Part shown: in pieces, positions 9,522 through 26,431 of the stretch
Layout: each line of letters starts with the position of its first letter
Numbering within the stretch: position 1 is the first letter of the stretch
Origin: a virus
Length of the DNA: 33,276 nucleotides
IMG/VR virus record: IMGVR_UViG_3300015202_000034
Coordinates: 1-33,276 of that record
Reading direction: 5' to 3' (one strand)
Notes under the pieces: generated by a model
The model's database searches: none
What the model was told of the DNA's origin: nothing
The model's input: the letters and a program-made list of their open reading frames with translations, nothing else
Program-made: the position numbers and the translations under genes

Positions 9522-11009
9522 TTATGCCTGCTTTATTGTGTAGGGCGCTGACGCCGTTGTTGAGATTACAGAGATGGCTTCGGTTGAAACAAATCCAGCT
9601 TCTTGGACAAAACCCGCGTACGGCAACAAAGGAATAGAAGGTTGTGCCGTAACAGCCGTAGTCGTAAAGTTAATCCAGATCGTAGCCGAAGGGCTCGTGT
9701 TTTGAATATACAAATACTTGCGCGTTGCGTTTGCGGCAACAGCGGTTGTGGCTGTTGAAGGCGTTACAGATGTTGTGCCAGACCCATCGGTAATTGTACC
9801 TTTTGTTGGCGTAGCAGACACCGAACCTGAGTCGATAACCGCGTGAAGGCTTGTTCCAACGGGCTGAACGACGGTAACCGAAGTCAAAGGTGTCAAAGTC
9901 GTCAACTGCGCAGCCGTCAATACGACAGGCACAGACGCCGCTGCTAAAGCTTGACCTAAAGCCGGTGTTTTAGAGTCGATTGAAGCTAACGAAGTGTTGG
10001 CCGTAGCTTGGTTAGCCGACGTTGCAGCACCTGTTGGCAAAGCGCTTGAGTCGACAACCGTGTGAAGGTTAGTGCCCGTTGCTTGAGTGACGGTGACGCT
10101 TGTTAAAGGCGTTAAAGTCGTTAATTGAAGGGCCGTTAACACCACGGGTGTTGAAGCCGCCGCTAATGCTTGCCCTTGAGGTGGTATATTAGTCGCTATA
10201 GTCGTGAGGCTTGCGTTACCAGAAGTCTGTAAAGCCGATGTTGAAGCGCCAGCCGGCAAAGGTAAAGATTGAACCGTGTCAATCTCTAAACGTCCAACCG
10301 CGTCTGTGAGCAAATTACGTTTTAAACCGCCTGCATCTACTCCAGCGACACCCATGGGGTTAAGCGTGGGCGTGGTACCTACAGCCGATGCTCCTGAAAC
10401 TACGATGTTGCCCGAAGTTCCAATAGCTAGCGTGTTGCCGCCCGACGAGAGGCTGCTAACCGCTACAGTGCCAGATACGGGTTGAGTAGCTGGAAAATTA
10501 GATACGGAAATGCTACCAGAGTCGACAACCGTATGGAGGTTAGTGCCAACAGGTTGAGTAACACTCACAGTTGTTAACGGGGTGAGGGCGGCTAATTGTG
10601 CCGAAGTCAATACGACGGGTACAGACGACGCTGCTAAAGCTTGGCCCAATACTGGAGTTTTGCCATCAATAGATGCCAAAGACGTATTAGCTGTGGCTTG
10701 GTTAGCCGATGTTGAAGCACCTGGTGCCAAAGGAGAATCAGATGCCAAGATAACGCGCTGAGTGCCTGTGCTAGACGCTCCAGCTCCCGCTGTTACTGCG
10801 TTGCCGGCGATTTGAACTAAGTTCTCAGGCAAAGGCGAAGACGCTACAACTGTCGCTGGAAGCGGCGTGGTAGGTGAAACAGGCGTTAATTGCCCTGTTC
10901 CATTAATAAAACCAATTTCAGTTGCCGAAGTTGGAGCGGTACTGCCATTTGTTCCAACGGAAGCGTTTGAACCGCCACCCGCTGGTGGCCAAAAATACGA
11001 CTGTGACAT
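9522..11009 (-). CDS. Repeat-containing virion protein
   Basis: 495 aa, Ala/Thr/Val/Ser-rich, with no catalytic motif. Three near-identical ~70-residue repeats lie at about 97-168, 252-322 and 327-396; each contains an ATSANQATANTSLASID-type segment, LGQALAAASVPVVLT, LTPLTSVTV and GTNLHTVVDS. Between repeats 1 and 2 are VSNFPATQPVSGTVAV and a DAGGLKRNLLTDAVGRLEIDT module. The last ~95 residues form a distinct beta domain (RKYLYIQNTSPSATIWINFTTT). Such repeats are common in phage neck and fibre proteins and could set fibre length. Starts with a TAATG overlap to the upstream gene. Confidence 0.75.
   Translation of the reverse strand: MSQSYFWPPAGGGSNASVGTNGSTAPTSATEIGFINGTGQLTPVSPTTPLPATVVASSPLPENLVQIAGNAVTAGAGASSTGTQRVILASDSPLAPGASTSANQATANTSLASIDGKTPVLGQALAASSVPVVLTSAQLAALTPLTTVSVTQPVGTNLHTVVDSGSISVSNFPATQPVSGTVAVSSLSSGGNTLAIGTSGNIVVSGASAVGTTPTLNPMGVAGVDAGGLKRNLLTDAVGRLEIDTVQSLPLPAGASTSALQTSGNASLTTIATNIPPQGQALAAASTPVVLTALQLTTLTPLTSVTVTQATGTNLHTVVDSSALPTGAATSANQATANTSLASIDSKTPALGQALAAASVPVVLTAAQLTTLTPLTSVTVVQPVGTSLHAVIDSGSVSATPTKGTITDGSGTTSVTPSTATTAVAANATRKYLYIQNTSPSATIWINFTTTAVTAQPSIPLLPYAGFVQEAGFVSTEAISVISTTASAPYTIKQA
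9822..10721 (-). repeat. Three in-frame ~210-bp repeats within the 495-aa virion gene
   Basis: Repeat units at about 10506-10721, 10044-10256 and 9822-10031 encode the three protein repeats (SANQATANTSLASID ... GTNLHTVVDS). Units 2 and 3 are nearly adjacent; unit 1 is separated by ~250 bp of unrelated coding sequence. DNA words such as the segments encoding GQALAA, PVVLT and LTPLT recur with a few silent changes, so this is a coding duplication, not recent enough to be identical. It could recombine to change copy number. Confidence 0.75.
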
Positions 11010-11395
11010 TATGATAAACCCTTTGTCTGAATCGTAATTTTACAAGTGCCTGTGCCTGCGTTAGCTGGCGTATAAGCTAATCGAATAGCATTAAATGGCA
11101 CTTGGTTTAAAGAGATAGCTATTGTATCGTTTGCAGCGGCTACGGTTGGAATACCGCTAAGCGTGAGTGTTGTCCAAGTTCCTGGATTTGCCGGAAGGTT
11201 GGAACCCTGGGGAGGTGGGGCATAATCCTCAGATACTTGAACTGAAAATGCACCGGTTGAATCTGTTGTCGTAACGTTAATAACATACGCGACATTGTCG
11301 ACGTAGGTAATAACAGTAGCAGCGGAGGTGAAGGGGGTAGCCAAGCTTTGCCCAGAGGCAAGTATGACTGGTAATAGGGCACGTTTGCTCGACAC
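11009..11395 (-). CDS. Small beta-rich neck/decoration-like virion protein
   Basis: 128 aa. It starts at GTG with a strong SD (AAGGAG, 6-base spacing), the first gene after the 11435-11457 element. Pattern: LLPVILASGQSLATPFTSAATVITYVDNVAYVINVTTTDSTGAFSVQVSEDYAP...GTWTTLTLSGIPTVAAANDTIAISLNQVPFNAIRLAYTPANAGTGTCKITIQTKG. I recognise this small beta-sandwich type from many phages, near neck or tail genes, with unknown function. It is similar in strand layout to the 117-aa protein at 3568-3921. Likely an assembly or decoration component. Confidence 0.7.
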   Translation of the reverse strand: MSSKRALLPVILASGQSLATPFTSAATVITYVDNVAYVINVTTTDSTGAFSVQVSEDYAPPPQGSNLPANPGTWTTLTLSGIPTVAAANDTIAISLNQVPFNAIRLAYTPANAGTGTCKITIQTKGLS

Positions 11396-11434: not shown

Positions 11435-11457
11435 TCAATTATGACTTTCAGTCACGG
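11435..11457 (-). promoter_or_regulatory. Conserved hairpin element, copy A (putative late promoter or processing site)
   Basis: Minus-strand core GTGACT-GAA-AGTCAT then AATTGA. The two halves can pair in a 6-bp stem (one G-U) with a 3-base loop. It differs from copy B (17735) at one of 23 positions and from copy C (24204) at four. It lies in the gap before the 128-aa virion gene and overlaps the last codons and the TGA stop of the 1012-aa gene. CATAAT inside it resembles a -10 box (5 of 6), but no -35 is seen. No T-run follows, so it is not a terminator. A GGGG...CCCC hairpin lies just downstream, at about 11415-11430. Confidence 0.6.
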
Positions 11458-14400
11458 TTGTTACGGTCGGACTCAGCGGATTGAGGCCCGGTTTGGTAAC
11501 TTTTAGCGTTTTTGTCCATTGTTGTCGCGGTCTTAGCTCCGCCCTTCATCTTACCGCCGCCTTGTTGCGGGGGCGATTGGGTGGGTTGTGGCTGGGCGGC
11601 CATAATGGATAATGGCGTCATAGTGTTGTCCATAGGCTGGCTTAAGAACATGCTATACGACACTCTGGTTTTATATGGCATGTCATGCCCTTGTTGTTGC
11701 GCCGTTGCCATTTCAGTAGCCATTTTTTGAACCGCAGAACCGTAAAGTGAAGGCCATAATGCTTTATAATCAACAATATCAGTGCTTTGCAACGTACCAT
11801 CTTTGATGTGCTGAAATACTACATTCGGATTAATAGCAATATCTTGACCGCGCTGGTAACGGGCTTCTTGAGCATTTGACACGGGTACTTTTTTGTCCAT
11901 TAACCCGAGTGTTTTTTCTTGAGGCTTAATACTTGACAAATAATGTAGTTGGCTGGCGGCGGCTGTTGCCAAAGCACTTTGATGATCGGGAAAATAATGC
12001 TGCAAGCTACTGTTAGCTATCCGGTCGATTTGGTCTTGAGGTTTGTTTTGATTTTCAGCTACAAGTTTATCTAGCTTTAAACGTGCCATTTCTGTTGGCT
12101 CGCGGTGAAGCATAATCGTGCCAGTTGAAAACAAACCCTTTACAGCTTTGCTTAAGTTTTTATCGCCGGCTGTAATAGATGAAACATAAGAACTTGCCGT
12201 TTTAAACGCCTCAGCGTTAGGCCCTTGTTCGCTGCCCATAATCTTAGCCGCAAGTGTGCGTAATAACTTAGGGTTTTCGCCTGATATTTTTTCTAAGTTA
12301 GCAACATGAGAATCAAGAATTTTAGCAATTCCTGAGGGCCCCATTCTGTCGGCCATTGCTCCTGAGACAGCACCCATTGCGCCGCCGATAAAGCCCCCAC
12401 CAAGCCCGCCAGTTAATGTAGTACCTATGCCGGCTGCCACAGCTCCATACAAGTTAACGTGCTTAGAGCCGCGAGTTGCGTCCTTTGTAAACGCTTCCTG
12501 CAAGCGCATTAGATCCATGATTTGCGGAATTGACTTGCCTTGCAACCCAGGTATTTGAGACAAGATTGTCTCGTTTGCAATGTTTTTACCTGGTTTTTTA
12601 AGACTGTTTAGTTTGCCTTGTAGGTTTTGAGAAGTGACGCCTTTTAGTTCGTCCTTCGCAGCTTGGGCCGTTTGCAGTTTAGTTTGTGCATCGGCTAATG
12701 CTTTATATTGCTCAGATTGTTCTAAAGCGGTCTCTAAGGCTGCTTTAGTCCTAGGGTGTTTTAAATCCGCTAGTTGATCGGCGGTTTTTTGAGCTTCACC
12801 ATATTCTGGCAGGGCTTTCATCAGTTTGTTTCGAAGATCGCCGTTTGCGTAGGGTTCAATGTCGTGTACGAATTTTGAGCCCGTCGAGTCTTCAAGCTGA
12901 CGAAGCAAAGGCATGTCGTTTTTAAACGCATCTGGATTTTTAAGAGACTTAATGCGCGTAGTAGCGCCTTCTTCTGTTCCGTATTTTTTTAACTTACCCA
13001 GTAATTGCGAGTCTTTAGCCAAAGGTTTCATGGCTTCACGGTACTCAGGCACGGCGTCTTTTAACGTGTCATCCAGGTGAAAACGAAGTTCTTTGTATGA
13101 GTTGCTTAAACCTTTATCAAAAGTTGAAGCATTAAAGTCGTATTTTGATATCTTATCAAGACCTTGAATCATTTTCTTAGCGTCGGGACCGGACATTAAC
13201 GCGCCGTGTTGAGCTTGAACGTTTTTGGCATACTCTTCGATTCTGTCGGCTTGACTTCTCGCCTCTAGAGTCGTTTCGGAGCGCAATTCGTTTGCAACTT
13301 CGGCGGCCTTATCGATAAACGGCTTTGTTGGAATACTAATGCTGCTATTGTCTAACAAGTCGTAGCTAGCTGAGCTGGCGTCAATAACTTTGCTTCGTAA
13401 AGCGTCTACCGCTCCCGCCGCTCGGTTACCCGTGTTCATGGCTTGAGACAATAAATCATTGGCAAGTTTGGTTTGAGACTCTTTTAAAGCTTGCTTAGCT
13501 AAATTGCTAGCGCTTGCCGCGTCGGCGCCTTGTTCTCTTAGCTGTTGTTGTGCCGTGCTTTCAAACTCTTTAAACGAAGCTTTAGCTTCCGATACAGACA
13601 TTTTACCAGACTCGACCGCGTCCGATATACCACCGATATGATCTAGGGCGTGCTCATAAACTTCTTGGTATTCTGGAATACTTTTAATGTCGGCGTGGTG
13701 TTTTAGATAAGCAGATATGTCGTCTTCTGACACCCCGCCAAACGTGCTTAGCGCTTTTTTAAGAATAGGCCGCATAGTAGCGACGCTTTCACCATCGGCT
13801 AGTCCACCAGCTGTCTTTAAAGCTAAAGACTCTAACCCTCTTTGTAGAGGTTTTTGAAACGTAGCCTTCCACAAAGGACTAACAACGCCCCCGACAAGGC
13901 CGCCAAACCCTGCGCCAAAAGCAATGTCTGCGCCAACGTCGCTTAAAGCGGTCTCGGCGCTTAGACTTGGATCAGACATCATTTTAGCTGTTTTATCGCC
14001 GGCGCCTATGACGGCCATTTCCGCCGCTGATCGCAAAGCACCGTTTGCAGCTCCTGCAAGTAAACCTTTACCAGCGATAGCGGGCACTGCATGGCCTGCG
14101 GCGTTAGCCAAGCCCCCTACGCCCGTCCCCGTAAGGCTACCGCCTATAAGGCCCGCAGCTTCGCCCGCGCCTGTTGCAATGGGACTATCTTCTGTTAAGC
14201 TTTTAGCTTGCTCAGGCGTTTCGCCCATTTTACTAGCGATCCACGGCAATGCTGGACCGGCTAAGCCCGTACCCACGCCTCTAGAAAAAGCACTTAAAGT
14301 GCTCATGCCTGGGATGTCGCTTATGCGGTCTCCCGCAGATTGCTCAGCTTGTGCCTCAGGTATAAAACCTGCGGGCACTGCTTGAGAACCGTTTGTTACA

Positions 14401-14486
14401 CCCGGTGAGGCGCCCTCAGACGGTGCCATAGCGTTGGCATCTGATTCTGAGATAAAACCTTCGGGCATTGGAGCTGCGTCTGCCAT
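11448..14486 (-). CDS. Large internal virion / DNA ejection protein candidate
   Basis: 1012 aa, third and largest of the ejection-like proteins. The N-terminus has two PxGFI motifs (residues 8-12 and 38-42), a feature I associate with phage ejection proteins. Residues ~60-210 contain Gly/Ala-rich hydrophobic segments able to insert in membranes (AGEAAGLIGGSLTGTGVGGLANAAGHAVPAIAG-type). The middle is long charged helices (about 215-640, many KSL, EALE, QKTADQLADLK segments). A second Gly-rich hydrophobic segment lies near 680-715 (GAVAAGIGTTLTGGLGGG). The C-terminus is Pro/Gln/Lys-rich. Its place after the 363- and 703-aa genes parallels T7 gp14-gp15-gp16. No lytic transglycosylase motif is apparent. 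SD AAGGA precedes the ATG. Confidence 0.65.
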   Translation of the reverse strand: MADAAPMPEGFISESDANAMAPSEGASPGVTNGSQAVPAGFIPEAQAEQSAGDRISDIPGMSTLSAFSRGVGTGLAGPALPWIASKMGETPEQAKSLTEDSPIATGAGEAAGLIGGSLTGTGVGGLANAAGHAVPAIAGKGLLAGAANGALRSAAEMAVIGAGDKTAKMMSDPSLSAETALSDVGADIAFGAGFGGLVGGVVSPLWKATFQKPLQRGLESLALKTAGGLADGESVATMRPILKKALSTFGGVSEDDISAYLKHHADIKSIPEYQEVYEHALDHIGGISDAVESGKMSVSEAKASFKEFESTAQQQLREQGADAASASNLAKQALKESQTKLANDLLSQAMNTGNRAAGAVDALRSKVIDASSASYDLLDNSSISIPTKPFIDKAAEVANELRSETTLEARSQADRIEEYAKNVQAQHGALMSGPDAKKMIQGLDKISKYDFNASTFDKGLSNSYKELRFHLDDTLKDAVPEYREAMKPLAKDSQLLGKLKKYGTEEGATTRIKSLKNPDAFKNDMPLLRQLEDSTGSKFVHDIEPYANGDLRNKLMKALPEYGEAQKTADQLADLKHPRTKAALETALEQSEQYKALADAQTKLQTAQAAKDELKGVTSQNLQGKLNSLKKPGKNIANETILSQIPGLQGKSIPQIMDLMRLQEAFTKDATRGSKHVNLYGAVAAGIGTTLTGGLGGGFIGGAMGAVSGAMADRMGPSGIAKILDSHVANLEKISGENPKLLRTLAAKIMGSEQGPNAEAFKTASSYVSSITAGDKNLSKAVKGLFSTGTIMLHREPTEMARLKLDKLVAENQNKPQDQIDRIANSSLQHYFPDHQSALATAAASQLHYLSSIKPQEKTLGLMDKKVPVSNAQEARYQRGQDIAINPNVVFQHIKDGTLQSTDIVDYKALWPSLYGSAVQKMATEMATAQQQGHDMPYKTRVSYSMFLSQPMDNTMTPLSIMAAQPQPTQSPPQQGGGKMKGGAKTATTMDKNAKSYQTGPQSAESDRNNRD

Positions 14487-14498
14487 TTAACATCCTTG

Positions 14499-16610
14499 TT
14501 ACTTTGCAGGTACGTAACCTGTTTGGCCGTTGACTGTAATCTTTTTCATTAACCGGCCACCGATGGTTTTAGTCTCGGCTTTTTCGGGACCACTAGATTG
14601 AGGCAACGCCGCCGAATTGTGAATACCAACGCTTTCTAAAATGCGCTTGTACTCATCGGTTTTAATTTTTTGTATTGTTTGTATTTTTGGAACAGAGCTA
14701 AAATTTGCCCAAAGTGCCGAAGGGTCCCCGCCGACTTGGTCGCCGATAAAAGTAGCCTCTGAGGGCTTGTAAACCCCGTCATGCTGTACTTGTTTAACGA
14801 CACCGATTAGCTGGCCGTGAATAGAAGCGGCCTCAGCTTTTACGCTTGGGTCCAGTTGAGACCAACTTACGCCGCTGTATTTTTTAGACAGCTCTAATGA
14901 ACGGTTCATTAAATCGTTCATGTTTTTAATGTTTACGATGCCTTGTTTTGTTTGCTCAGGCACCGCAATGTTTGCGTCCCCAACCCCAGGTATGTGCTTA
15001 GCTTCTAAGTCTTCGGCTAATTTTTCATGCCCGCTTAACCGTAACACTCTATTTTTGCTCGCAAAAGCTTGCTCAGCGTCCGGCGTTTGTCCGTTAGAGC
15101 CTCCCGCGTAGCTCATAAGGGCGCCAGATGCGGCGGCGCGGTTCAAAAGATTATAGTTTTCGCTGTTAACTTGAGACGAAAGCATAGCCAGTTGGTTTTC
15201 GGCTTGTTGCCTTTGGGGGCTGCCTTCCGGGTATTTTTTAGTCTGGTCAACAATCGTTTGCAATGCGATACGGTTAGCGCGCACCTGGGCTAAAGAGTCG
15301 ACGCGAGCATCGGCCTCAGCGTTAGCGCCTCTGGCTTGAGCTAAAGCAGCTTTGCCTTGTTGCCCCATAAGGCCGGCTTGTGCTTTTTGTAACTCGTGCT
15401 CGTGCGTCAAACGTACGAGGTTTTGAGCATTTGACGCCGAAGTCTTTTGAGCATCCAAATCGTTTGTGATGGTGTCTTGCATTGCTTTAAGCACCGGGTT
15501 TTCTGTGTGCGTAAGACCCGCACCAAAACCGCCCACTAACAATCCAAAAAGCGTGCCAATTTTACCAAGGGTGTCTTTTTTAGCAAATAACGATTGAAGA
15601 GTCTCTGGCTTAATCGTTTGATTAGCCAAAGCTTTTGTAAGATTGTCGTCTTCTTTTTGTAACGATTGTCTTTGTTCATGGTAATGATCGTCAACGGTTT
15701 TTTGCGCAGGAGTTGTTGACGCGGGCATTGGAGGAGCGCTTTTGTCGGGAGCGCCCGCAGGTGTTTGATCTTGAGAAGCCGCATCTTGAACGCCGGGCTC
15801 TTGAGATGCTTGTACAGTTGCCGGTTGACCGTCAGGGCTTGCAGGCGGGGTGTTAGTCGGCGCAATGTCCGGGGCACCGCCCATAGTTGGCAGGCCTTTT
15901 ACAGCGTTTAAAACGCCGGCGCCTTCGGAACTGCCCCAACCCGAATTATCTGAGTCTGGCGTCGGTTGTGTAGCACTGGGGCCTTGTGGAGTTGGCGTGG
16001 AATCTAACTTTGTCGCTTCACCCATGTGAAACGGATCATTAACAGAATTCATGTCTACAGTTGGTGCCGCAGGCTCTTGCTTTGAGTTTTCATCAAAAGC
16101 TTTTTCTTCTTGAGCAACGTCACCGCCGTCTGCTAGCTTAACAGGACCGCCACAACCTAGACAAAACTTAACGTGCCTGCGGTCGCTAACGTGAACTTCG
16201 CCGCCTGTAGCGTCGCAAACAGTAACCGCACCCCAGCCAGCGCTAGGGCGTGTGACGCATTTACTATCCTCTGGGCTTGAAGTTCTTTGATCAACTTCGC
16301 CGCCTTGGGCTAGTTTCATCGTAACTTTGCCATTTTTAGACGCAGCCCCGTTGATTGCAGTAATAGCGCCGTTGCCTGTGTTTGGTCTGCTTTGAGGTGC
16401 GGCGGCTAAATGCTTTGCTTGATCAGTTTGCATAGGCGTCTGGGCGTCTGTTGCAATGCCTTTTAATGCGCCGAGTTGTGCTTGATGTTCTTTACTTAAA
16501 GCACCGTGGGCTAACAGAATTTCATGCCCGTCTGGGTGACGTAATGTAGTCGAATGGGCGTCAGATCGAACGTGTTGAAACTTAGAAAAATCCATTTTAG
16601 CCGGCTTCAT
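14499..16610 (-). CDS. Internal virion / DNA ejection protein candidate
   Basis: 703 aa. The N-terminus MDFSKFQHVRSDAHSTTLRHPDGHEILLAHGALS is a pattern I recognise from uncharacterised phage proteins of this gene neighbourhood. Residues ~105-170 include LAQGGEVDQ, a Cys-rich stretch ending in KFCLGCGGPVKLADGGDV and further Gly-Gly-acidic modules like those of the 363-aa neighbour. About 170-310 is Pro/Gln/Ser-rich low complexity. From ~310 on it is mostly helical, with one hydrophobic Gly-rich segment (IGTLFGLLVGGFGAGLTH, ~350-367). The last residues (GRLMKKITVNGQTGYVPAK) form a separate short motif. Probably packaged in the head or delivered with the DNA; role inferred from order and composition. 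Confidence 0.6.
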   Translation of the reverse strand: MKPAKMDFSKFQHVRSDAHSTTLRHPDGHEILLAHGALSKEHQAQLGALKGIATDAQTPMQTDQAKHLAAAPQSRPNTGNGAITAINGAASKNGKVTMKLAQGGEVDQRTSSPEDSKCVTRPSAGWGAVTVCDATGGEVHVSDRRHVKFCLGCGGPVKLADGGDVAQEEKAFDENSKQEPAAPTVDMNSVNDPFHMGEATKLDSTPTPQGPSATQPTPDSDNSGWGSSEGAGVLNAVKGLPTMGGAPDIAPTNTPPASPDGQPATVQASQEPGVQDAASQDQTPAGAPDKSAPPMPASTTPAQKTVDDHYHEQRQSLQKEDDNLTKALANQTIKPETLQSLFAKKDTLGKIGTLFGLLVGGFGAGLTHTENPVLKAMQDTITNDLDAQKTSASNAQNLVRLTHEHELQKAQAGLMGQQGKAALAQARGANAEADARVDSLAQVRANRIALQTIVDQTKKYPEGSPQRQQAENQLAMLSSQVNSENYNLLNRAAASGALMSYAGGSNGQTPDAEQAFASKNRVLRLSGHEKLAEDLEAKHIPGVGDANIAVPEQTKQGIVNIKNMNDLMNRSLELSKKYSGVSWSQLDPSVKAEAASIHGQLIGVVKQVQHDGVYKPSEATFIGDQVGGDPSALWANFSSVPKIQTIQKIKTDEYKRILESVGIHNSAALPQSSGPEKAETKTIGGRLMKKITVNGQTGYVPAK

Positions 16611-17701
16611 TACTTAGCCTTTTTAGGAAGTGTTTTGCCATCTTTTGCAAGAATAGCTTCAACAAACTTGTGGGCGTCTTTGCCTGGAGTTTTAGATTGC
16701 GTGACTGAACGAGGCAACACAATGCCGCCTTCGTCTAGTTTTTTAGCTACAGTGTCGTTTGCGTATGAGTTTTTAGCGCCGCCGACTTTTGGCGTGCCCT
16801 GAATCTTCTCGCCAGATGTCATTGGGTTGGCGCCTTTTTCTACCGACTTAACTGCCCCCGGTGAAAGGTACCGCTCGCCTGGAGAGACAAGAGCTTGTAC
16901 TTTACCGCCGCTAGCAAATTTTTGAGTCAAAAAGTCTGAAAAATGCGGTACGCTACCGCCTTCGGCTGCCAGCATCATAGCAGCGCCACCACCACCGCCA
17001 CCACCACCTGCCATGCCAGCCGCACTACCTGCACCTTTAGCCAAACCGCCAATAGCCGCCGCTTGGTTACCCAAAACACCCACTGTACCCGCCGAGTTAG
17101 CAGCGTTAACGCTTGCTTGACTTCCAACAGCCGCGTTGTTTTGACCTTGAATTGAATTAAGAAGGTTTTGTTGTTGGCCTTGTGCCGCCTGATTGTACGC
17201 TTGATTGCCTTGGGCTTGTTGTTGAACCTGTTGGCCAGCGATACCGCCCAATTGATTCATGGCGTTTAAGCTTTGGTTTGCTTGCATTGTAGCGGCTTGG
17301 CCTGCGGCCTGTTGTTGGTTAGCCCCGCCTTGCATTGCAGCTTGACGAGCGATTAATGCCGGGTTTGCAGATGAACCGCGTTGGCCTGCCATTAAAGCAG
17401 CTTGATTGGCTGTATTAGCGCCCGTAGATTGTGCTAGTTGCGCTTGTGCGGGGTTAGGGCCTGTGCCGTTGGCGACGCCCTGGAGCTGGTTAAATACGCT
17501 TGATTGGTTACCAACGCCGTTTTGACCCTGTAAAGCTTGAACAAATGCTTGTTGTTGAGCTAAGCCGCTTTGTGTCTGGTCATAAGCCGTAGTGGCTTGG
17601 CCTACTGTAGCCGGGTTTTGAATGTTTGCTTGTGCTGCGCTAGCAAACCCTGTTCCAGCGGCGCCGCCGCCAACACCAAGTAAACCACTAATCGCTGACA
17701 T
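16610..17701 (-). CDS. Gln/Ala-rich internal virion / ejection-associated protein
   Basis: 363 aa, first gene after the copy B element, with an SD (GAGG). Residues 1-25 are Gly/Ala-rich. About 30-210 are extremely Gln/Asn/Ala-rich, helical repeats. A Gly run (~230-240) precedes a C-terminal module: EGGSVPHFSDFLTQKFASGGKVQALVSPGERYLSPGAVK...GTPKVGGAKNSYANDTVAKKLDEGGIVLPRSVTQ. I recognise that module from other phages, where its function is unknown. The order nozzle, GNAT, this gene, then two very large proteins parallels T7 gp12-gp13-gp14-gp15-gp16. CAC-rich DNA (about 16985-17010) encodes the Gly run. Confidence 0.65.
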   Translation of the reverse strand: MSAISGLLGVGGGAAGTGFASAAQANIQNPATVGQATTAYDQTQSGLAQQQAFVQALQGQNGVGNQSSVFNQLQGVANGTGPNPAQAQLAQSTGANTANQAALMAGQRGSSANPALIARQAAMQGGANQQQAAGQAATMQANQSLNAMNQLGGIAGQQVQQQAQGNQAYNQAAQGQQQNLLNSIQGQNNAAVGSQASVNAANSAGTVGVLGNQAAAIGGLAKGAGSAAGMAGGGGGGGGAAMMLAAEGGSVPHFSDFLTQKFASGGKVQALVSPGERYLSPGAVKSVEKGANPMTSGEKIQGTPKVGGAKNSYANDTVAKKLDEGGIVLPRSVTQSKTPGKDAHKFVEAILAKDGKTLPKKAK

Positions 17702-17734
17702 ATATCCTCGTAGGTTTTAGACGCGGCTGTGCGT

Positions 17735-17757
17735 TCAATTATGACTTTCAGTCACAG
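17735..17757 (-). promoter_or_regulatory. Conserved hairpin element, copy B (putative late promoter or processing site)
   Basis: Minus-strand core GTGACT-GAA-AGTCAT then AATTGA, identical to copy A over 22 of 23 bases. It begins inside the last codon and stop of the GNAT-like gene (the TGA lies within GTGAC) and ends 34 bases before the start of the 363-aa gene. Its flanks share nothing with the flanks of copies A and C, so selection appears to act on the 23-nt block itself. No poly-T tail follows. Confidence 0.6.
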
Positions 17758-18192
17758 GGGTAAAGAGATGATAGTTTGAGGTACAAGCTTAAAGCCAAGG
17801 TGTGCTGCCCTTGCCAACACCCCATGATCTTCCGTAAAAGCTATAATACCTTTTAGTTTTAACTGTTTAGCACGTTCTATTAGTTCAGTTACGACCATGC
17901 TAATGCCCTCATGCCTTAAGCCGCTGGACATCTCAGCGTTGCTCACCAAGGTGTCAAGCTGAGCATACCCGCCCTCAACCATGCGCAAGAACCCAACCGC
18001 TATCGGCCCTGAATCGCACCGCGCCACGAAACCGCACTTTGGCAAGCCTTCTGGCGTTATGGCGTCAAAACCAACGTAGTTTTGCGAAAGCAATAAGCTT
18101 TGAACGGTTTTAAACATGTTTGGTGAGTAGTCCATAACCTCAACCAAAGCTTTGTCCTGCTTTTTGAACCCTGTAACCTTTTTTAGCTCCAA
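17752..18192 (-). CDS. GNAT-fold acetyltransferase-like protein (T7 gp13 position)
   Basis: 146 aa from a TTG start. The sequence has the GNAT strand/helix order: ELKKVTGFKKQDKALVEVMDYSPNMF (beta1-alpha1), GFVARCDSGPIAVGFLRMVEG (beta2-3), YAQLDTLVSNAEMSSGLRHEGISMVVTELIERAKQLKLKGIIAFT (motif A region; the canonical R/QxxGxG/A loop is modified to LRHEGIS) and HGVLARAAHLGFKLV (motif B). The TTG lies within the end of the nozzle gene (53-base overlap) and has no good SD. An ATG at 18135 (19 residues later) follows the upstream stop, but using it would remove the first GNAT strand. The degenerate loop may mean the enzyme is inactive, and the position suggests a virion or accessory role like T7 gp13. 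Confidence 0.7.
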   Translation of the reverse strand: MELKKVTGFKKQDKALVEVMDYSPNMFKTVQSLLLSQNYVGFDAITPEGLPKCGFVARCDSGPIAVGFLRMVEGGYAQLDTLVSNAEMSSGLRHEGISMVVTELIERAKQLKLKGIIAFTEDHGVLARAAHLGFKLVPQTIISLPL

Positions 18193-21163
18193 CTACGATG
18201 TTCATGCCCGAAAGGCTAAGGCCCTGACCAGCTTGAACACCGAGTGATGAGTCATAAAGCTCGGTAATTGTAATCTGAAACGTCTCGCATTTCTGCTTTG
18301 ATGGAAAAATTCTGGTTTCAAATACGTTGCTCGGCCCGCCCCAAACAGCGCTAGCTCCCCAAGAAGGGTCGTTACCATAAGGCGGCGAGTAGTTGTCGGG
18401 GGTCACTGTTACATACTGTGACGACGACGTGTTGTAATCGTAGGCAATTTGTACGCTAAGTTTAAAAGGAGTAAAATACGCCCCTAAAAGATACATAAAG
18501 TAAAAACGCTCATAACCCTGTAGTCCGGCTAAACTAATCCAGGAAGTAGTAAACGACAACAACACTGGGGCAGAGCCGTCAATATACGTGTTTGGCTGTT
18601 CTTGATATACAGTACCAGCGCTGTTTAAATAAGTATGGGCGCCTTGGTAAAGGGTTGAACTTACAGCCGATAAGTTTGTAAACGTGCCCCATTGCGAAAA
18701 ATAATAATCATACATTAATGTAATATTAGAGTTAGCTAGTAAAAATCGTATTTGATTAGTCCCAGGTATAACCTGAGCACTTTCAACTAGTTGGTTGTTA
18801 TATGACTCAACCGGTGCGCCGATATATTGTGTTTGAAGGTCTCGACCTAACAACCAAATACCTTTATCCGATTGAAACATAATACCCATGGGCATTAGCA
18901 CAATTGATTTAGGGTTTGTACACCCTACGCTTGAAGTAATAAAAACCGGGTCTGAAAAATCATTGTTGCCGCCCGTGTTGTCTGGTCCATTGCCTGTAAT
19001 GTAGTAGATAGCGTCTTTTTTAAACACAATCAACTTGTCGTCCATAGCTGACAAAGCCGTAATCGCGCCTGTGCTACCTTGAGCGCCCGAAGTGGGAGCA
19101 ACATAGATAGTAAAGAGATCAGACATCTCAACAGGGGTCGCTTGAATGACTTGTTTAGAGTACCACAAAAGGTTTTGATCTTCGGCATCGACTAAAAAAA
19201 GCCTGCTTTTAAACAAGCAAGAGACCGTCGACGCGGGGGCTGCAATGTTTTCAATAACACCGCCCGTTGTGTATAGCAGTGTTTGACCAAGAATTGCACT
19301 GTCTGCCAAAGTGTCGATAATAGTTACAAAGTCAATTGTCGTGTCGTTTAATACAGGCGTTGTAATGCTTGTAAACTGATAATAAACTTGTTGTGCAACA
19401 CTCCAACGGTAGCCCACAATGCGCACCGGGTTAGGTAATACTTTAGACGTAATACGCAAAGTTGGCACGTATATTGTATTTGAGCTGGCCGTTCCCGTTG
19501 TTATTTGACTAAGGGGAATAGACGGGGCCGACCGATGCAAGTTACCTTGATTGTCAGTCCATTCGTAACAAAACCTATAAAAATATGTTTGCGCAGTTAA
19601 AGCACCGCCTGTAACAGACGTTGTAACGGCTAAGTTTTCAGGCCACACGTTAAAGCCATGCTCAACAGGCTTTACGCCGTCGTACATCCAAAGCTTGCCG
19701 CCTGTTAAATGCAGCGTATCTCCAATTTCAGCGCTGTATTGACCAGAGGCGTTTAACGCAAACTCTGCTAAATTAATACCTGTTTGAGTGTAAATGGCGT
19801 TAACGGGCGTTCCTGGAGGCGAATTTGTAGTTTTGTTGACAGTCGCTAAGAAGTCTTTAATAGCATACGGAACGTAATGCGCCCCGTTAAAGAGCGACAC
19901 GTTTGGTAAAACTTGTGTGCTTTGGTACCCGCCCCCGTTTGCGTAGGCAAGGCGAAGGTATACGGTGCCTTTTAAATCAATTAAAAAGTAGGTGGGCTGA
20001 TTGCTTTCACCGTAGGTGACTAAAACGTAGGCAATTCCGTTGTCATAAAAAGCTTTAGACGCTAAGCCAACCGACCTTAAAATTACCACAGGTGTAGATA
20101 AAGCTAAATCGGCTTGTGCGACAGTCAAAAACGAAACGTAATCTGTTTGCGCGTTTGGAGCATAAGAATAAGTGTTTTTAGTCTCGTAAATAATTGATAA
20201 AACGCCTAAAGTAGCTGCGCTAGTTATTTGAGATAAAGACACCCCTGTAACGATTTGAGTCGCAGGGTTAACAACTCCCAAAGTTTGGTTGTATGCTGCC
20301 ACATACATATTGCCGGCTGTTGATGAAGTACCGTCCCAAAACGAAACCCAAACCACCGAAGAAGGCCCTGAAATGTCGGCGGTTAACGATACGAGAGACG
20401 CTGTGTGTGCCAGTATTGTTTTGGCGGCGCTTAATAAAAGCGTCCTAGAAATATAGTTAATTTTAACTGCATTGGCAGATGCGGCCCAAGAAATATACAA
20501 AGTATCGTTTGCAACTACTGCGTCATAACCAGACGTAATGCTTTGTAAATCGGTGCTAACATCCGCAGCGGCTAAAGGGCTTGCGGGCGTTGCAGTTGGA
20601 ATAGCCAAGTAACGAACATGAGGACTACCACTAAAAGTCGACAAAAACGTAATAACAAAATAAGCACCTAAAACAAACACTTTGGGCGAAGAGGCCGTGT
20701 TTTCTAGCAACACACTAGGTACAATTTGTTGTCCTGTGGCCACGTCAGAAACGACGTAATAAGGCAAACCGTTTTGAATGTAAACCGTACACGCAAGGCC
20801 TGTTGCCGATACAGCGGTGTCAATTCCTGTTTGAGAGGCGCTATTTCTAATAATTGACTGTGTTTTTAAACTTACCGACTGAATGCTACCTTGATTAAGC
20901 CATTGATTGGTTTCTTGGCTAAAAGCATACAAATTTGAGCCTGTAGCTAACAAGTTGCCGTTTAAAGTGGTTAACGTTGTTTGAAGTGCGTTGGGTAATT
21001 TTGTAATTTGCCCAAAGCCATTTCGCTTTGTTAGCGCGCCAGTTTTTGTAAAAACCGAGTTTTGGAGAGCAATAAACTTGCCCATTTGAACTTGTTTTGG
21101 GTCGGCCTTGGTGTCTACACCTTGACTAAAGTTAATTGGAACGGCTTGTTTATTAAGAGACAT
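18140..21163 (-). CDS. Tail nozzle / DNA-stabilisation beta-propeller protein
   Basis: 1007 aa. The N-terminus PINFSQGVDTKADPKQVQMGKFIALQNSVFTKTGALTKRNGFG is typical of podovirus tail nozzle or packaged-DNA stabilisation proteins (T7 gp12-, P22 gp10-like). The rest is beta-rich with repeated strand units, and the late segment MSDLFTIYVAPTSGAQGSTGAITALSAMDDKLIVFKKDAIYYITGNGPDN plus CTNPKSIVLMPMGIMFQSDKGIWLLGRDLQTQYIG matches the propeller part of such proteins. It should close the portal channel and form the end of the short tail. Its start overlaps the fibre gene stop by one base. Confidence 0.8.
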   Translation of the reverse strand: MSLNKQAVPINFSQGVDTKADPKQVQMGKFIALQNSVFTKTGALTKRNGFGQITKLPNALQTTLTTLNGNLLATGSNLYAFSQETNQWLNQGSIQSVSLKTQSIIRNSASQTGIDTAVSATGLACTVYIQNGLPYYVVSDVATGQQIVPSVLLENTASSPKVFVLGAYFVITFLSTFSGSPHVRYLAIPTATPASPLAAADVSTDLQSITSGYDAVVANDTLYISWAASANAVKINYISRTLLLSAAKTILAHTASLVSLTADISGPSSVVWVSFWDGTSSTAGNMYVAAYNQTLGVVNPATQIVTGVSLSQITSAATLGVLSIIYETKNTYSYAPNAQTDYVSFLTVAQADLALSTPVVILRSVGLASKAFYDNGIAYVLVTYGESNQPTYFLIDLKGTVYLRLAYANGGGYQSTQVLPNVSLFNGAHYVPYAIKDFLATVNKTTNSPPGTPVNAIYTQTGINLAEFALNASGQYSAEIGDTLHLTGGKLWMYDGVKPVEHGFNVWPENLAVTTSVTGGALTAQTYFYRFCYEWTDNQGNLHRSAPSIPLSQITTGTASSNTIYVPTLRITSKVLPNPVRIVGYRWSVAQQVYYQFTSITTPVLNDTTIDFVTIIDTLADSAILGQTLLYTTGGVIENIAAPASTVSCLFKSRLFLVDAEDQNLLWYSKQVIQATPVEMSDLFTIYVAPTSGAQGSTGAITALSAMDDKLIVFKKDAIYYITGNGPDNTGGNNDFSDPVFITSSVGCTNPKSIVLMPMGIMFQSDKGIWLLGRDLQTQYIGAPVESYNNQLVESAQVIPGTNQIRFLLANSNITLMYDYYFSQWGTFTNLSAVSSTLYQGAHTYLNSAGTVYQEQPNTYIDGSAPVLLSFTTSWISLAGLQGYERFYFMYLLGAYFTPFKLSVQIAYDYNTSSSQYVTVTPDNYSPPYGNDPSWGASAVWGGPSNVFETRIFPSKQKCETFQITITELYDSSLGVQAGQGLSLSGMNIVVGAKKGYRVQKAGQSFG

Positions 21164-22302
21164 TAGTTAATCCGCAGCCAAAGACTTGTATAACTAGGTG
21201 CGTTTCCAACGCCAGACGACGTTGAGCCTACAGAGCCCATAAGTTGCCAACTTCCAGCCAAAGTAATCGCCGAAGGATATTCTCTTGTAGTACTGCAAGG
21301 TATTAAAGAGCTTCCCGCTACAACGGTTCCAAAAGACAAATTTGTAGCGAGGCTGGGACCAAAAATATAAAACGCCATGACGTACGTTCCAACGGCACCG
21401 GGTGAAGAGACCGTTGCGATAGGTACGTTTGTCCCACCACCACCGCCTGTGAGGCCGTAACCCGGAACAATGGTTTGAACCGGTGTAAACGCTAGGTTAC
21501 CTGCTGTAATCGTGCTAGCGGCGATTTCGGTTGTTGTTACGGCTGCGAGCGCGATCTTAGTTGTTGTAACACTTCTGTCAAGAATTTTAACAGTTGTGAC
21601 GGCGTCGGTAGCAAGTTGCGTTGTAGTAATGCCACTTGGCGCCACGCGAATTATGTTTGAAACGATTGTGATCGTGGAACCGTCGACAGTGTACGGTGCC
21701 GACATATTGCCGTTGTTATCTAAAGTGACGATCTTTTGACTTGTTGGCAAAGTAGGCAAAACAATTTGATAGTTAGTTGATAGCCCACCAGGGGGCAATA
21801 ACGTCAAAGCGTACAAGCTGTTGGGGCTTATGTCTCTTAAAGAATAGGCGCCCGCGTCCATGTTGGCTGCGACACCGACGTCGGACTGCCATACAAACGT
21901 GCTAGAAATGGAAACATAAGTAGCTGAGGCCGGTGCAACAAGGTTTGAAATAGACCCTGGCGTGCCGGCAACACCGCCGCCTTGAGTGATTCGAATGTTG
22001 TTACCAAGGCCGTCAACGTAAAACAAATCATTACTTGACTTATAAATAGTATTGTTAGGCGGCATAGTGGCTTGTGCCACCAGTGTGAGGCCGGCGATGC
22101 CCGTTGCAAAATTTGAGTTAAACGTGAGGTTTGAATTGATGTTTAAAGCGCTTGCGGTGATTAATACGCCGCGTCCGGGCGTGTGATCGTGGCCGTCAAC
22201 TAATGTTAAGGACGAGTTAATGTCTGTAGCGTAGTCTGGTCCTGGTTCAATACCAACAACGGGAACAATTAATTGCATGTTAGGGCTGATTACAAAACTC
22301 AT
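21163..22302 (-). CDS. Tail fibre / tail spike N-terminal-type protein
   Basis: 379 aa. The start MSFVISPNMQLIVPVVGIEPGPDYATDINSSLTLVDGHDHTPGRGVLIT is a well-known phage pattern: a virion-binding head with the HDHxPGxGV motif. Strand-rich repeats follow (ALTLLPPGGLSTNYQIVLPTLPTSQKIVTLDNNGNM; SITTTQLATDAVTTVKILDRSVTTTKIALAAVTTTEIAAS is a TTxI repeat typical of fibre shafts), and then a C-terminal beta domain (YVMAFYIFGPSLATNLSFGTVVAGSSLIP). Probably a short tail fibre or its adaptor. Lies between the neck genes and the nozzle gene. Confidence 0.75.
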   Translation of the reverse strand: MSFVISPNMQLIVPVVGIEPGPDYATDINSSLTLVDGHDHTPGRGVLITASALNINSNLTFNSNFATGIAGLTLVAQATMPPNNTIYKSSNDLFYVDGLGNNIRITQGGGVAGTPGSISNLVAPASATYVSISSTFVWQSDVGVAANMDAGAYSLRDISPNSLYALTLLPPGGLSTNYQIVLPTLPTSQKIVTLDNNGNMSAPYTVDGSTITIVSNIIRVAPSGITTTQLATDAVTTVKILDRSVTTTKIALAAVTTTEIAASTITAGNLAFTPVQTIVPGYGLTGGGGGTNVPIATVSSPGAVGTYVMAFYIFGPSLATNLSFGTVVAGSSLIPCSTTREYPSAITLAGSWQLMGSVGSTSSGVGNAPSYTSLWLRIN

Positions 22303-22596
22303 TTAAAAAACCTCCAAGTCGACTACAACGGGGGCCGAAGAAAATAAGACGAGCGTTAGCGCTGGGGTTGGATTTGTGTCCTGAATGTCGTAAATCACCG
22401 CTGCGGCTCTAACTCGCGTGGTTTTCCAGCCAACAAGTTTTTCCCCGAGTAAATGATTTACGACGTTTTGCCCAGACACTAACGCCACGTTTTTTAAAAT
22501 AATGCTTTTGTTTGCCGGGTTGTTAATTACCGGTTCAATAGCAGACGCCCAAGGCGTTGATGAAAGGACCCAAGACATCTTTTGAGGGAGGCGCAT
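22303..22596 (-). CDS. Conserved phage neck-region protein, unknown function
   Basis: 97 aa. The pattern KMSWVLSSTPWASAIEPVINNPANKSIILKNVALVSGQNVVNHLLGEKLVGWKTTRVRAAAVIYD, then ALTLVLFSSAPVVVDLEVF, is one I recognise from many podovirus-like phages, always beside the adaptor and tail fibre genes. No catalytic motif. It overlaps the adaptor gene by one base (TAATG) and precedes the fibre gene (TAAATG). The constant position suggests a structural or assembly role in the tail. Confidence 0.7.
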   Translation of the reverse strand: MRLPQKMSWVLSSTPWASAIEPVINNPANKSIILKNVALVSGQNVVNHLLGEKLVGWKTTRVRAAAVIYDIQDTNPTPALTLVLFSSAPVVVDLEVF

Positions 22597-23645
22597 TAAA
22601 AGCCCCCAATCGAGCCGGAACCTCGAAAGCCGCCGTCCATACCGGCTTGGCGAGCGTCTGCAATAGTGTCGGGGCTGCCTGCGTCTCTGTTCGATGCCGA
22701 CTCTTCAATACGCTTCTCAAGAGCTGCCAGCTGCATTACAAGCGATTCTGTAGGCGACTCTTCTTTTGTTAAGGCGTAGTAGGCGGCTTTAACGATAACG
22801 TATTCGATCCAACCGCTAATACCGATGCTTGTGGTGTCGGTGTCTAATAGTAGTTCTTGGAGCCTTGGAATGTACCAGAGGCGGATTCTTTGACCAGCCG
22901 CCGGCGTTGGGACGAATTCAACGTTGCTACCCATAACGCGGTATTGCATGTTAAAGACGCCGTAGATCGTACTTGCCGTGTTTGGGTAAACAAACTTGTT
23001 TCGATCAGTAAAATTAAAGCGCTGAATGTTAACGTAGCCGTTAGGGCTATTAGTAAGGGCAAGGTCAACCCCTCTCATTTTGTAAAAAGGCGCTGGCGTG
23101 AGTGTTGTTTGATTTAAAGCGTTTGAAAACGTATTAGACCCGTTTGGAAGCGGGTATAAGTAGGTTTGGCCATCGGATGTAAATTCAATTGGAGTTGCGA
23201 GGAAGTAATCTTCGTATGTATTTGTTAATAGGTCGTATAACTCAAACATGGCTTGGTTAATATACCCGCGCCATTCTGGATCACCTACGAATTGACTGTT
23301 AACGCGGTCTGCACGCTGTTGGGCCGAAAGGCGTATCTGACTTAAAGTCATCTCACCTGTGGGGGCTGGAATGGCTGCCAGAGCGTTTGTTGAGGGGCCA
23401 GCGCCATTAGCGTTAATCGCTGTAACCTTGTACCAATACTGTGTGCTTAGCACTACAGCCGTGTCTAGGTATTGTGTCGCTAAAGGGCTACCAGAGACGG
23501 TAGCGATGGTTGTAAACGTGATGTTATCTAAGCTGCGTTGAACAACATAAGACGTAGCGCCGGGAGATAAACTCCACGACGCTAGAATCTGTTGATTAGA
23601 TGTTTGCACAGCAAATTGCTGCGGAATACCGGGTAAAGCTGCCAC
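22596..23645 (-). CDS. Head-tail adaptor with N-terminal fibronectin III domain
   Basis: 349 aa starting at GTG with SD AGAGG. Residues ~5-92 form a fibronectin type III domain (PGIPQQFAVQTSNQQILASWSLSPGATSYVVQRS...TQYWYKVTAINANGAGPSTNALAAIP). From ~97 the adaptor follows: MTLSQIRLSAQQRADRVNSQFVGDPEWRGYINQAMFELYDLLTNTYEDYF, typical of phage neck adaptors (SU10-type), then AAGQRIRLWYIPRL and GWIEYVIVKAAYYALTKEES. The adaptor joins portal to tail; the FnIII domain may decorate the neck or bind surface sugars. Fused Fn3 domains at this locus are seen in other phages, so the fusion is not unique. Confidence 0.8.
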   Translation of the reverse strand: MAALPGIPQQFAVQTSNQQILASWSLSPGATSYVVQRSLDNITFTTIATVSGSPLATQYLDTAVVLSTQYWYKVTAINANGAGPSTNALAAIPAPTGEMTLSQIRLSAQQRADRVNSQFVGDPEWRGYINQAMFELYDLLTNTYEDYFLATPIEFTSDGQTYLYPLPNGSNTFSNALNQTTLTPAPFYKMRGVDLALTNSPNGYVNIQRFNFTDRNKFVYPNTASTIYGVFNMQYRVMGSNVEFVPTPAAGQRIRLWYIPRLQELLLDTDTTSIGISGWIEYVIVKAAYYALTKEESPTESLVMQLAALEKRIEESASNRDAGSPDTIADARQAGMDGGFRGSGSIGGF

Positions 23646-23693
23646 AAAACCTCTGTTATATTAAAGAGTTAGCTCACTAGAGGTTAGTAAAGC

Positions 23694-24116
23694 TTACTCT
23701 CCACCGATAACAATAGACGAATCGCTAAGCATCAGAAGTACGTTTAATGCTGATCCAGAAGCTGGATCGGCCAAAGCACCTGCGGGGCTGAGCGTTTTAA
23801 CAATAATCTGAGTCCCAGCTGGCAGCGAAACGCTTGCGTTTGGTGCGTTTTGGATTTCGACAGTTGAAATGCCAGACAAACCACTAACAGGACTCTGCAT
23901 CGAACCCATAGCTGAAAACAAACGTGTGAAATTTGTCTGTAAATCCAAAGTAATGCGGTATGTTCCAACAGAAACACGCACAATAGATTTAACCATTGAA
24001 CCGACGCTTGATTGTACAGCGCCTGTAGCGCCAATCGTAGCAGTTGCAGTCACCATTACTGGTGCTTTGTGCATTGAATAGATCTTGCCGCCTGAAAGAT
24101 AGTTGCGATTAGCCAT
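23694..24116 (-). CDS. Conserved virion protein, first gene after element C
   Basis: 140 aa from ATG 24116, which has a good SD (AGAGGG, 6 bases upstream); a start at 24149 would add 11 residues and is not favoured. The sequence MANRNYLSGGKIYSMHKAPVMVTATATIGATGAVQSSVGSMVKSIVRVSVGTYRITLDLQTNFTRLFSA is a pattern I recognise from other phages, where the gene sits next to the adaptor. The rest is beta-rich with NAPNASVSLPAGTQIIVKTL. Probably a head decoration or neck protein; no catalytic motif. Confidence 0.75.
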   Translation of the reverse strand: MANRNYLSGGKIYSMHKAPVMVTATATIGATGAVQSSVGSMVKSIVRVSVGTYRITLDLQTNFTRLFSAMGSMQSPVSGLSGISTVEIQNAPNASVSLPAGTQIIVKTLSPAGALADPASGSALNVLLMLSDSSIVIGGE

Positions 24117-24203
24117 AAAAAACCCTCTATAACCCCAGCCTAGTTTCACCGTTAGGCACCTGGGGGAGCCTAAGCGGGCGAGGGTAGAGGGAATCTCCGG
24201 CCT

Positions 24204-24226
24204 TCAACTATGACTTTTCGTCACAG
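24204..24226 (-). promoter_or_regulatory. Conserved hairpin element, copy C (putative late promoter or processing site)
   Basis: Minus-strand core GTGAC-GAAAA-GTCAT then AGTTGA, matching copy B at 20 of 23 positions. The stem is 5 bp with a 5-base loop. Here the element also lies between inverted CCGGCC (24197-24202) and GGCCGG (24229-24234) arms, so a larger hairpin can form around it. It precedes the neck operon (140-aa virion gene, adaptor, fibre). A further inverted repeat, TTAGGC/GCCTAA, lies downstream at 24153-24174. Confidence 0.55.
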
Positions 24227-25023: not shown

Positions 25024-25314
25024 TTAAACAGCGCCTTTTTCAATCAACCGCTCAATAACAAGCTTTGTACGATTTTTCAATGACCCAGTCGTCTCTTTAA
25101 CCGGGCCAGCGACTAGTTCAAAACGTTCTTTTGCTTGAGAGTGAAGCTCTTGTTCTAACAAATACGCTTCTGAGTTTTTAAACTCTTCGTTTTCTTGGTT
25201 TTGAAGTTGCAGTTGAACTACCAAAGCCTTTAATTGATCCGTAGTTTGACCGTTTAAACCGTCTACAAACTCTTGTGTAACCCCTTTAGGCAACTTAACT
25301 TTACGAATTTTCAT
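25024..25314 (-). CDS. Small coiled-coil phage protein
   Basis: 96 aa, nearly all helical: KLPKGVTQEFVDGLNGQTTDQLKALVVQLQLQNQENEEFKNSEAYLLEQELHSQAKERF, then GPVKETTGSLKNRTKLVIERLIEKGAV. The closing GPxxET...NRTKLxxERLxEKG pattern is one I recognise in small unassigned proteins of many phages. The ATG overlaps the subtilase stop (ATGA). Function unknown; an assembly chaperone or DNA-linked accessory protein is possible. Confidence 0.65.
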   Translation of the reverse strand: MKIRKVKLPKGVTQEFVDGLNGQTTDQLKALVVQLQLQNQENEEFKNSEAYLLEQELHSQAKERFELVAGPVKETTGSLKNRTKLVIERLIEKGAV

Positions 25315-25964
25315 GGCATTTTCCCCTTATTGTTTACAAATTTTCCTGTGGCAATTGCGGTGCTTATGCTAGTTCCACAAATACTATCAAAACAAAAATT
25401 TTCTTTGTGCTTAACAATAGCACCATAGTTTCCTTTAGACACGCCAGCGATGGGCAAAGAGCCGATTACCTCAAGCCCTTTTAACGGGTAACAAGCTGGA
25501 AAAACATTGCAATTAACGTTTAAGTTTTTATTTTTGTTTCCCGCTGCAACAAACACTTTAACGTTCCTAGACAATGCCTTGGAGATTACCTTAGCCTCGT
25601 ATTGATAGGGCAAAGGACCTTCAAAAGACAAGTTAAGGACGTCTGCTTTTTCTTTTAAAGCATAATCAATAGCCAATACAATTGCAGGCGTGGCTGGGTT
25701 TGTACCAAACACTTTATAAATTAATAGACAATAATCACTATTTTTAGCATTTGCTTCTATAGCGGCTACGATCTTAGTGCCGTGACCTATTAAATCTTCG
25801 CCCACGCGGTTTTTTTGAGTTGTAAAGTCAAAATGTCCTGTTGAACAAAGGTGTTTAAGAGGGCCGTTATACCCCGTGTCAATAACAGCGATCTTGATCG
25901 TTTTGGCTTGCACTTGAGTGGCCACTAGTAACAAAAGTAATAACACTAACAACAGTTTTCTCAT
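25311..25964 (-). CDS. Secreted compact subtilisin-like (S8) serine protease
   Basis: 217 aa. Residues 1-20 are a clear signal peptide (MRKLLLVLLLLLLVATQVQA, cleavage likely after Ala20), so the enzyme should be exported to the periplasm. The subtilase triad is present: Asp29 in IAVIDTG, His61 in GHGT, Ser199 in GTSIST; oxyanion Asn143 lies in AAGN. No propeptide: the mature enzyme begins almost at the first catalytic strand. With ~197 mature residues it is smaller than most subtilases (usually 270 or more). C40, C79, C152, C158, C191 and C196 could form disulfides. SD GGGAG; ATGA overlap with the Cys-rich gene upstream. Target unknown: envelope proteins, other phages' receptors, or lysis. 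Confidence 0.9.
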   Translation of the reverse strand: MRKLLLVLLLLLLVATQVQAKTIKIAVIDTGYNGPLKHLCSTGHFDFTTQKNRVGEDLIGHGTKIVAAIEANAKNSDYCLLIYKVFGTNPATPAIVLAIDYALKEKADVLNLSFEGPLPYQYEAKVISKALSRNVKVFVAAGNKNKNLNVNCNVFPACYPLKGLEVIGSLPIAGVSKGNYGAIVKHKENFCFDSICGTSISTAIATGKFVNNKGKMP

Positions 25965-26431
25965 TTTAAACTCCCGGCTATTAAATCGGTTGTAATACTT
26001 ATCGGTTCGTTTTTTACTAACTTTACTTTATTTTCACTCTTTAGCCCGTCTTCGTTATGCCATTTTGAAAGACTCGATGGGGTGCGGCTTGCTTTGATAC
26101 CGCGTTGGCCATGAATTGAACCATAGTTCTTATTAGCTTTTTCAATAGGACGTAAAAACGCGTGGCACCCGCAAAATGGGCAGTTACCGTCCTTTGTAGC
26201 CGTCACGCGCTGCATACGAAGCCCGTTGCTACGCGCCCTAGCCGCTGTTATATTAGCGCCGGCCATGTCGTTAGCAGGCTCACAATCACAATGAGCCACG
26301 GCTAAAGGGGTTCTAGCTACTGACTCGGGGCTAAATACATAAGCCCCGGTAATAGCAAGCGCCGTTTGGCTATTGTAAACAAAGTCATCTTCTGTTAACT
26401 CTGGCAGTTCAAAATCGTAGTTTTTTTGCAT
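25961..26431 (-). CDS. Cys-rich hypothetical protein following the sigma-like gene
   Basis: 156 aa from ATG 26431 (SD AAGGGA, 7-base spacing); a GTG at 26458 would add nine residues. Two Cys clusters, HCDCE (about 47-51) and CPFCGCH (about 83-89), suggest zinc binding. The rest is polar with basic patches (NKNYGSIHGQRGIKASRTPSSL). It overlaps the end of the sigma-like gene by 37 bases and runs into the subtilase by ATGA, so the three are likely co-translated. Sigma-gene neighbours are often anti-sigma factors, but the HxxxCxxC zinc anti-sigma motif is absent. Function unknown. Confidence 0.6.
   Translation of the reverse strand: MQKNYDFELPELTEDDFVYNSQTALAITGAYVFSPESVARTPLAVAHCDCEPANDMAGANITAARARSNGLRMQRVTATKDGNCPFCGCHAFLRPIEKANKNYGSIHGQRGIKASRTPSSLSKWHNEDGLKSENKVKLVKNEPISITTDLIAGSLK

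Follow-up and report, generated by a model that had tools for sequence, protein, structure and literature searches.

Repeats before the virion genes of an uncultured phage as very probable late promoters that keep their places but not their sequence among relatives

The late promoters of phage T4 (gp55/gp33) have no -35 box, are read by the host RNA polymerase and serve virion genes, and across T4 relatives they have TATAAATA in common. In the podophages phiEco32 and 7-11, late promoters are read by the host RNA polymerase together with a phage sigma factor, which is recognisable in both phages (PMC8948821). The late element reads tAATGTAtA in phiEco32 and GTAAtg-(16)-aCTA in 7-11, that is, unrelated sequences at similar positions, 6-9 bp from the start (PMC8948821). 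Here we describe three repeats which are very probably a virus's own start signals for its particle-building genes and whose counterparts in related phages occupy the same places with different sequences.

The stretch of DNA analysed (the window: 33,276 nt, IMG/VR record IMGVR_UViG_3300015202_000034) covers part of the genome of an uncultured tailed phage (~58 kb). Its tail and capsid proteins gave no match among 50,697 phage records and have 12 and 59 related loci, respectively, in uncultured viral contigs. A host was sought with the capsid protein in genome contigs and none was found, and the terminase of a relative reached only 23-28% against known phages among the matches listed. Fourteen relatives were read and their proteins clustered (cl numbers denote these clusters). 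The shared core comprises what look like a family-A DNA polymerase, a primase-helicase, SbcC/SbcD-like and RecA-like proteins, as well as terminase, portal, scaffold, capsid and tail proteins. Three of the relatives (G014, G016 and G019) are classed as linear in their records, yet the two ends of each share an overlap of 148-1192 nt (92-99% identity); because the ends are near-identical, these three appear to be near-complete genomes. The phage is otherwise mostly uncharacterised, and we noted two protease-like genes with PHROG protease matches in the window (25311-25964 and 2341-3075, both on the minus strand). Separately, in G009, G011, G018, G022 and G026 the neighbouring genes cl49 and cl50, encoding a ~370-aa ATPase-like and a ~385-aa protein, lie between capsid and cl4; a similar-looking ATPase-led pair is annotated in N4 as gp24/gp25.

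A motif scan confirmed the three minus-strand copies of the element reported in the initial annotation, at 11435-11457 (P4), 17735-17757 (P3) and 24204-24226 (P2). Two of the copies share the 21-nt core GTGACTGAAAGTCATAATTGA without a difference, at 11435-11455(-) and 17735-17755(-); the core of the third copy, GTGACGAAAAGTCATAGTTGA at 24204-24224(-), has 3 differences from the other two. No further copy was found in the window on either strand at up to 3 mismatches, and the core motif gave no match in 100 dinucleotide-preserving shuffles of the window. The gaps that hold the copies measure 52, 50 and 96 nt; as had been described, virion genes follow directly downstream, and all genes concerned are on the minus strand. 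P4 precedes a cl8-type gene (11009-11395), its first gene and a member of a core cluster. P3 precedes the cl5-cl6-cl7 virion genes (16610-17701, 14499-16610 and 11448-14486), of which cl5, the first after the element, belongs to a core cluster present in 14 of 15 sequences. P2 lies upstream of cl4 (23694-24116) and the tail-gene operon which cl4 opens; cl4 homologues also occur in 14/15 sequences. The ATG at 24116-24114 is the start of cl4, most homologues beginning with a MANRN-like sequence directly after a conserved leader. A program-listed start at GTG 24149 (23694-24149) was rejected, since it lies inside that leader and the conserved start is ATG 24116. Other particulars of the initial annotation held as well: the flanks of the copies are unrelated, and in two cases the element contains the stop of the previous gene, P4 overlapping that of ORF 11448-14486 and P3 that of ORF 17752-18192. 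Its statement that each copy occupies the only notable gap nearby was right about the gaps and wrong about their being unique in the case of the third copy, which has a comparable 48-nt gap close by at 23645.

Outside the window the sequence itself does not recur: an exact-pattern scan of viral contigs gave 0 matches, and with 3 mismatches the window motif found only chance-like matches in the relatives, which carry different elements at the homologous gaps instead. Late regions sufficient for the comparison were available in 13 relatives, 12 of which have an element of their own of ~20 nt in 3-5 copies, placed before cl22 (P1), cl4 (P2), cl5 (P3) and cl8 (P4); cl22 marks the start of the packaging/head module and falls outside the window. 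Examples are AAAGACTAAATACCGTAATTGAAC (G006), TGGACTGTATCGCAATATAGAAC (G009), GGGCACTATATCCATATTTGAGG (G010), ATGGACATTTTGACTAACCTGAGGC (G011), AAGCGCGGATGACTAAGTTAGAGC (G014) and CTGACTATACGCCTATGGTAGAC (G022). When the motif search was confined to the regions upstream of late genes, 10 of the 14 genomes, the window among them, exceeded their shuffles by 6-33 SD; with 8 shuffles per genome these values are coarse. The signal was weak in G001 and G016, did not exceed the best shuffle in G026, and no significant motif was found in the late upstream regions of G019. When 13 whole sequences were scanned, each with its own matrix, almost all sites were late sites on the late coding strand. G009 departs from this with an additional copy close to P4 and a weak site inside a gene, and G018 with one weak site on the opposite strand. 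The P4 promoter of G009 with its 3' flank (GGACTGTATCRCAATATGAACCCTAGAG) is present twice, at 42906 and 43514, ~600 nt apart, and the two copies flank an opposite-strand ORF (cl69) whose insertion may have duplicated the promoter. Over ~21 positions, mean element identity is 16.3 within a phage, 8.8 between phages and 7.8 for shuffled sequences, and across phages element similarity does not track core-gene similarity. This pattern of same place and different sequence strongly supports the reading of the elements as promoters of virion units. It also provides a natural set of some dozen promoters which differ in sequence and occupy corresponding positions.

The initial annotation had likewise proposed promoters of the virion transcription units, and this part of its proposal stands, while the hairpin, the single-subunit polymerase and the CATAAT box that it attached to them are not supported. 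The repeats are probably phage-specific late promoters at which the host RNA polymerase is redirected by a phage-encoded factor. GAC(T/A) opens the block in most phages, and T-A/T-G closes it. In the window the element would be compact, spanning about -18 to +1 and running from the GTGAC box to ATT|G, the G being the putative first transcribed base; the predicted starts are near 11436 (P4), 17736 (P3) and 24205 (P2). There would be no separate -35 box, and no conserved -35 was found upstream of the elements. Nor is CATAAT likely to be an ordinary -10 box, since relatives do not keep CATAAT at that place. The position of the box was also followed relative to the cl4 leader: of 25 phages, 14 have GAC ~25 nt before the GAT of the leader inside a single +-2 nt window, and the shuffled maximum over all trinucleotides and positions was 11; AGG and TAG also lie at near-fixed distances from the leader. 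The spacing between the GAC box and the G deviates in G014, G016 and G026, which counts against this reading. One element would fire each virion operon, P2 the tail genes, P3 the internal virion genes and P4 the small virion genes, and a fourth copy, P1, is predicted before the packaging/head genes outside the fragment. We infer both the transcription start and the involvement of the host enzyme, which a phage factor would bring to the element. The factor would co-evolve with the element, so that positions stay fixed and sequences differ between phages.

The identity of the polymerase bears on the best surviving alternative, namely that the elements are promoters of a phage single-subunit RNA polymerase of the T7 or N4 RNAPII kind, as the initial annotation had suggested, with a gene that has diverged beyond recognition or is absent from the assemblies. 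The ~20-nt block adjoining a T-A-G-like start (TATAG in G009, G014, G016 and G018) does resemble T7-type promoters, in which a contiguous block before operons likewise adjoins the start, and that class typically has a single, rapidly diverging promoter in each phage. However, a profile search with PF00940 gave 0 matches in 30 relatives, the three near-complete genomes included, while the controls were found (T7 RNAP at 1e-110, N4 gp16 (RNAPII) at 1e-14 and, weakly, N4 vRNAP at 0.007). Even at E<=10 there was none in seven relatives including G014, G016 and G019. The observation that no polymerase gene is seen thus extends from the window, itself a fragment, to its relatives, and no cognate single-subunit enzyme of the T7 type was found in either. 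No unassigned large RNAP-like protein is common to all relatives, a virion RNA polymerase of ~3,500 residues is absent from the near-complete ones, and an Rpb2 model search for a multisubunit RNA polymerase in relatives returned nothing convincing. The GAC-to-G spacing moreover differs between phages. We therefore consider a single-subunit polymerase unlikely. Because no T7-, N4- or multisubunit-type polymerase was found with the controls positive, the host RNA polymerase is the likely enzyme; and because a host sigma would not explain a different sequence in every phage, a phage factor is implied. The data point to a fast-changing, viral factor steering the host polymerase.

Redirection of the host polymerase raises the question of candidate factors, and two proteins deserve mention. 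The first, cl21, has ~130 residues and is encoded by a gene flanked by those for DNA polymerase and terminase; it occurs in all 13 relatives searched, and its region is missing from the window. In its AlphaFold2 model (pLDDT 86), residues 49-132 resemble sigma-region-4 / LuxR-type helix-turn-helix domains with Z of 5-7.4, middling values that may reflect only a common arrangement. Foldseek gave no match for cl21 at E<=0.001, and no convincing family was found among Pfam, NCBIfam and PHROGs when the core small proteins were searched. The Sigma70 region 2 and 4 models (Sigma70_r2, Sigma70_r4_2) had no convincing match. Co-variation of the element with core proteins did not convincingly single out any protein, cl21 giving a partial correlation of -0.04. 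On the basis of the model, cl21 is an unproven candidate specificity factor; it may instead be a small terminase subunit. The second candidate is a 166-aa ECF-sigma-like protein encoded in the window at 26395-26895 on the minus strand. All five of its NCBIfam matches are sigma factors, mostly of ECF type, at E 0.014-0.12 and thus below cut-off, and its sole PDB match is SigW at E=1. No homologue was found in relatives, viral contigs or phage records, and a single-sequence model made without homologues was unusable (pLDDT 39). Its sequence makes it an equally unproven candidate for the factor of the window phage. We tentatively propose, as a possibility short of an even chance, a new small initiation factor, for example cl21, unrelated in sequence to known sigmas, which would direct the host RNA polymerase to a compact -35-less promoter, factor and promoter being rewritten together in each phage.

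The helix-turn-helix domain of cl21 could also be taken to favour a different arrangement, in which a phage activator binds the element and an ordinary host sigma70 promoter lies downstream, as with P2 Ogr at -55 or the Q sites; one motif common to several late operons would suit such an activator. The position of the P1 copies argues otherwise. The end of the matched block and the start codon are ~8-19 nt apart at P1, and the ribosome-binding GAGG of G010 begins at the putative +1, at the end of the block, leaving no room for a -10 and a start farther downstream. Because of this short distance, the start cannot lie far downstream of the element. If the P1 element is the promoter of its operon, transcription therefore starts at the 3' end of the element, which speaks against a remote activator site followed by a -10. 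In agreement with this, no conserved -10 follows the element, and the P2 Ogr layout, in which a host -10 separates the start from a site ~55 nt farther upstream, is not what we found. An activator site is thus quite improbable. A hairpin serving as an RNase III-like processing site or as an N4 virion-polymerase promoter, both raised in the initial annotation, is the least probable reading: the window copies can form a 6-7 bp stem (p 0.02-0.08 vs shuffles), but in the third copy the loop-proximal pair is lost and the hairpin is weaker, nearly all elements of 12 relatives form stems that do not surpass those of shuffles, so that neither a 5-7 bp stem with a 3-nt loop at each promoter nor a conserved stable stem in the transcript is seen, and no protein of vRNAP size or RNAP-like character was found. 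The hairpin was accordingly rejected as a functional feature, and its lack of conservation in relatives makes both N4-type promoters and RNase III sites unlikely.

Much more conserved than the element hairpin is a leader RNA behind the third copy, which the initial annotation did not mention. Aligning the leaders placed it at 24117-24197 on the minus strand, between the P2 element and cl4; in relatives it measures ~80-110 nt. Its outer stem pairs CCCTCTA (24191-24185) with TAGAGGG (24129-24123), which contains the ribosome-binding GAGGG, and it encloses a pseudoknot-like helix that pairs CCCCA with TGGGG. The outer stem exceeds shuffles in 91% of the leaders tested (Fisher 5e-24) and the pseudoknot in 65% (1e-14); the test covered 23 leaders, the best helix being sought in each, which the shuffling allows for. 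In the leaders of relatives (e.g. L034, L031, L050, L059 and L068) CCTC pairs with the ribosome-binding GAGG before the ATG, and a GGTGAG is conserved. No match to the leader was found in Rfam among the sources searched. The leader is thus a separate candidate regulator behind one promoter.

Taken as late promoters read by a redirected host polymerase, the elements predict as many as four such promoters in each genome of a family for which no cultured relative was found here. If the factor is confirmed, they would offer orthogonal promoters ready for use and a case in which to test how promoter specificity changes without a phage RNA polymerase. Compared with known systems, the likeness to the hairpin promoters of N4 vRNAP is limited to the small-loop hairpin possible in the window copies; the hairpin is absent in relatives, there is no virion polymerase, and the genes served are late rather than early. 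T7-type promoters share the ~20-nt block ending at a TA-G start and the single consensus per phage before operons, and differ in that an RNA polymerase gene was not found here and the box-to-start spacing varies between phages. The late promoters of T4 are alike in lacking a -35 box, in serving virion genes and in using the host polymerase, as is probable here, and unlike in that the sequence here differs per phage. With phiEco32 and 7-11 the present phages share similarly placed, unrelated late promoters and, as we read the data, reliance on the host polymerase. They differ from them in having no canonical sigma common to the family and in a block which adjoins the putative start. By analogy, the present case would work like phiEco32 and 7-11, and it is not filed as a member of that group, in which the defining factor is a sigma that here is only a candidate; a further difference is that the divergence here extends across about a dozen related phages.
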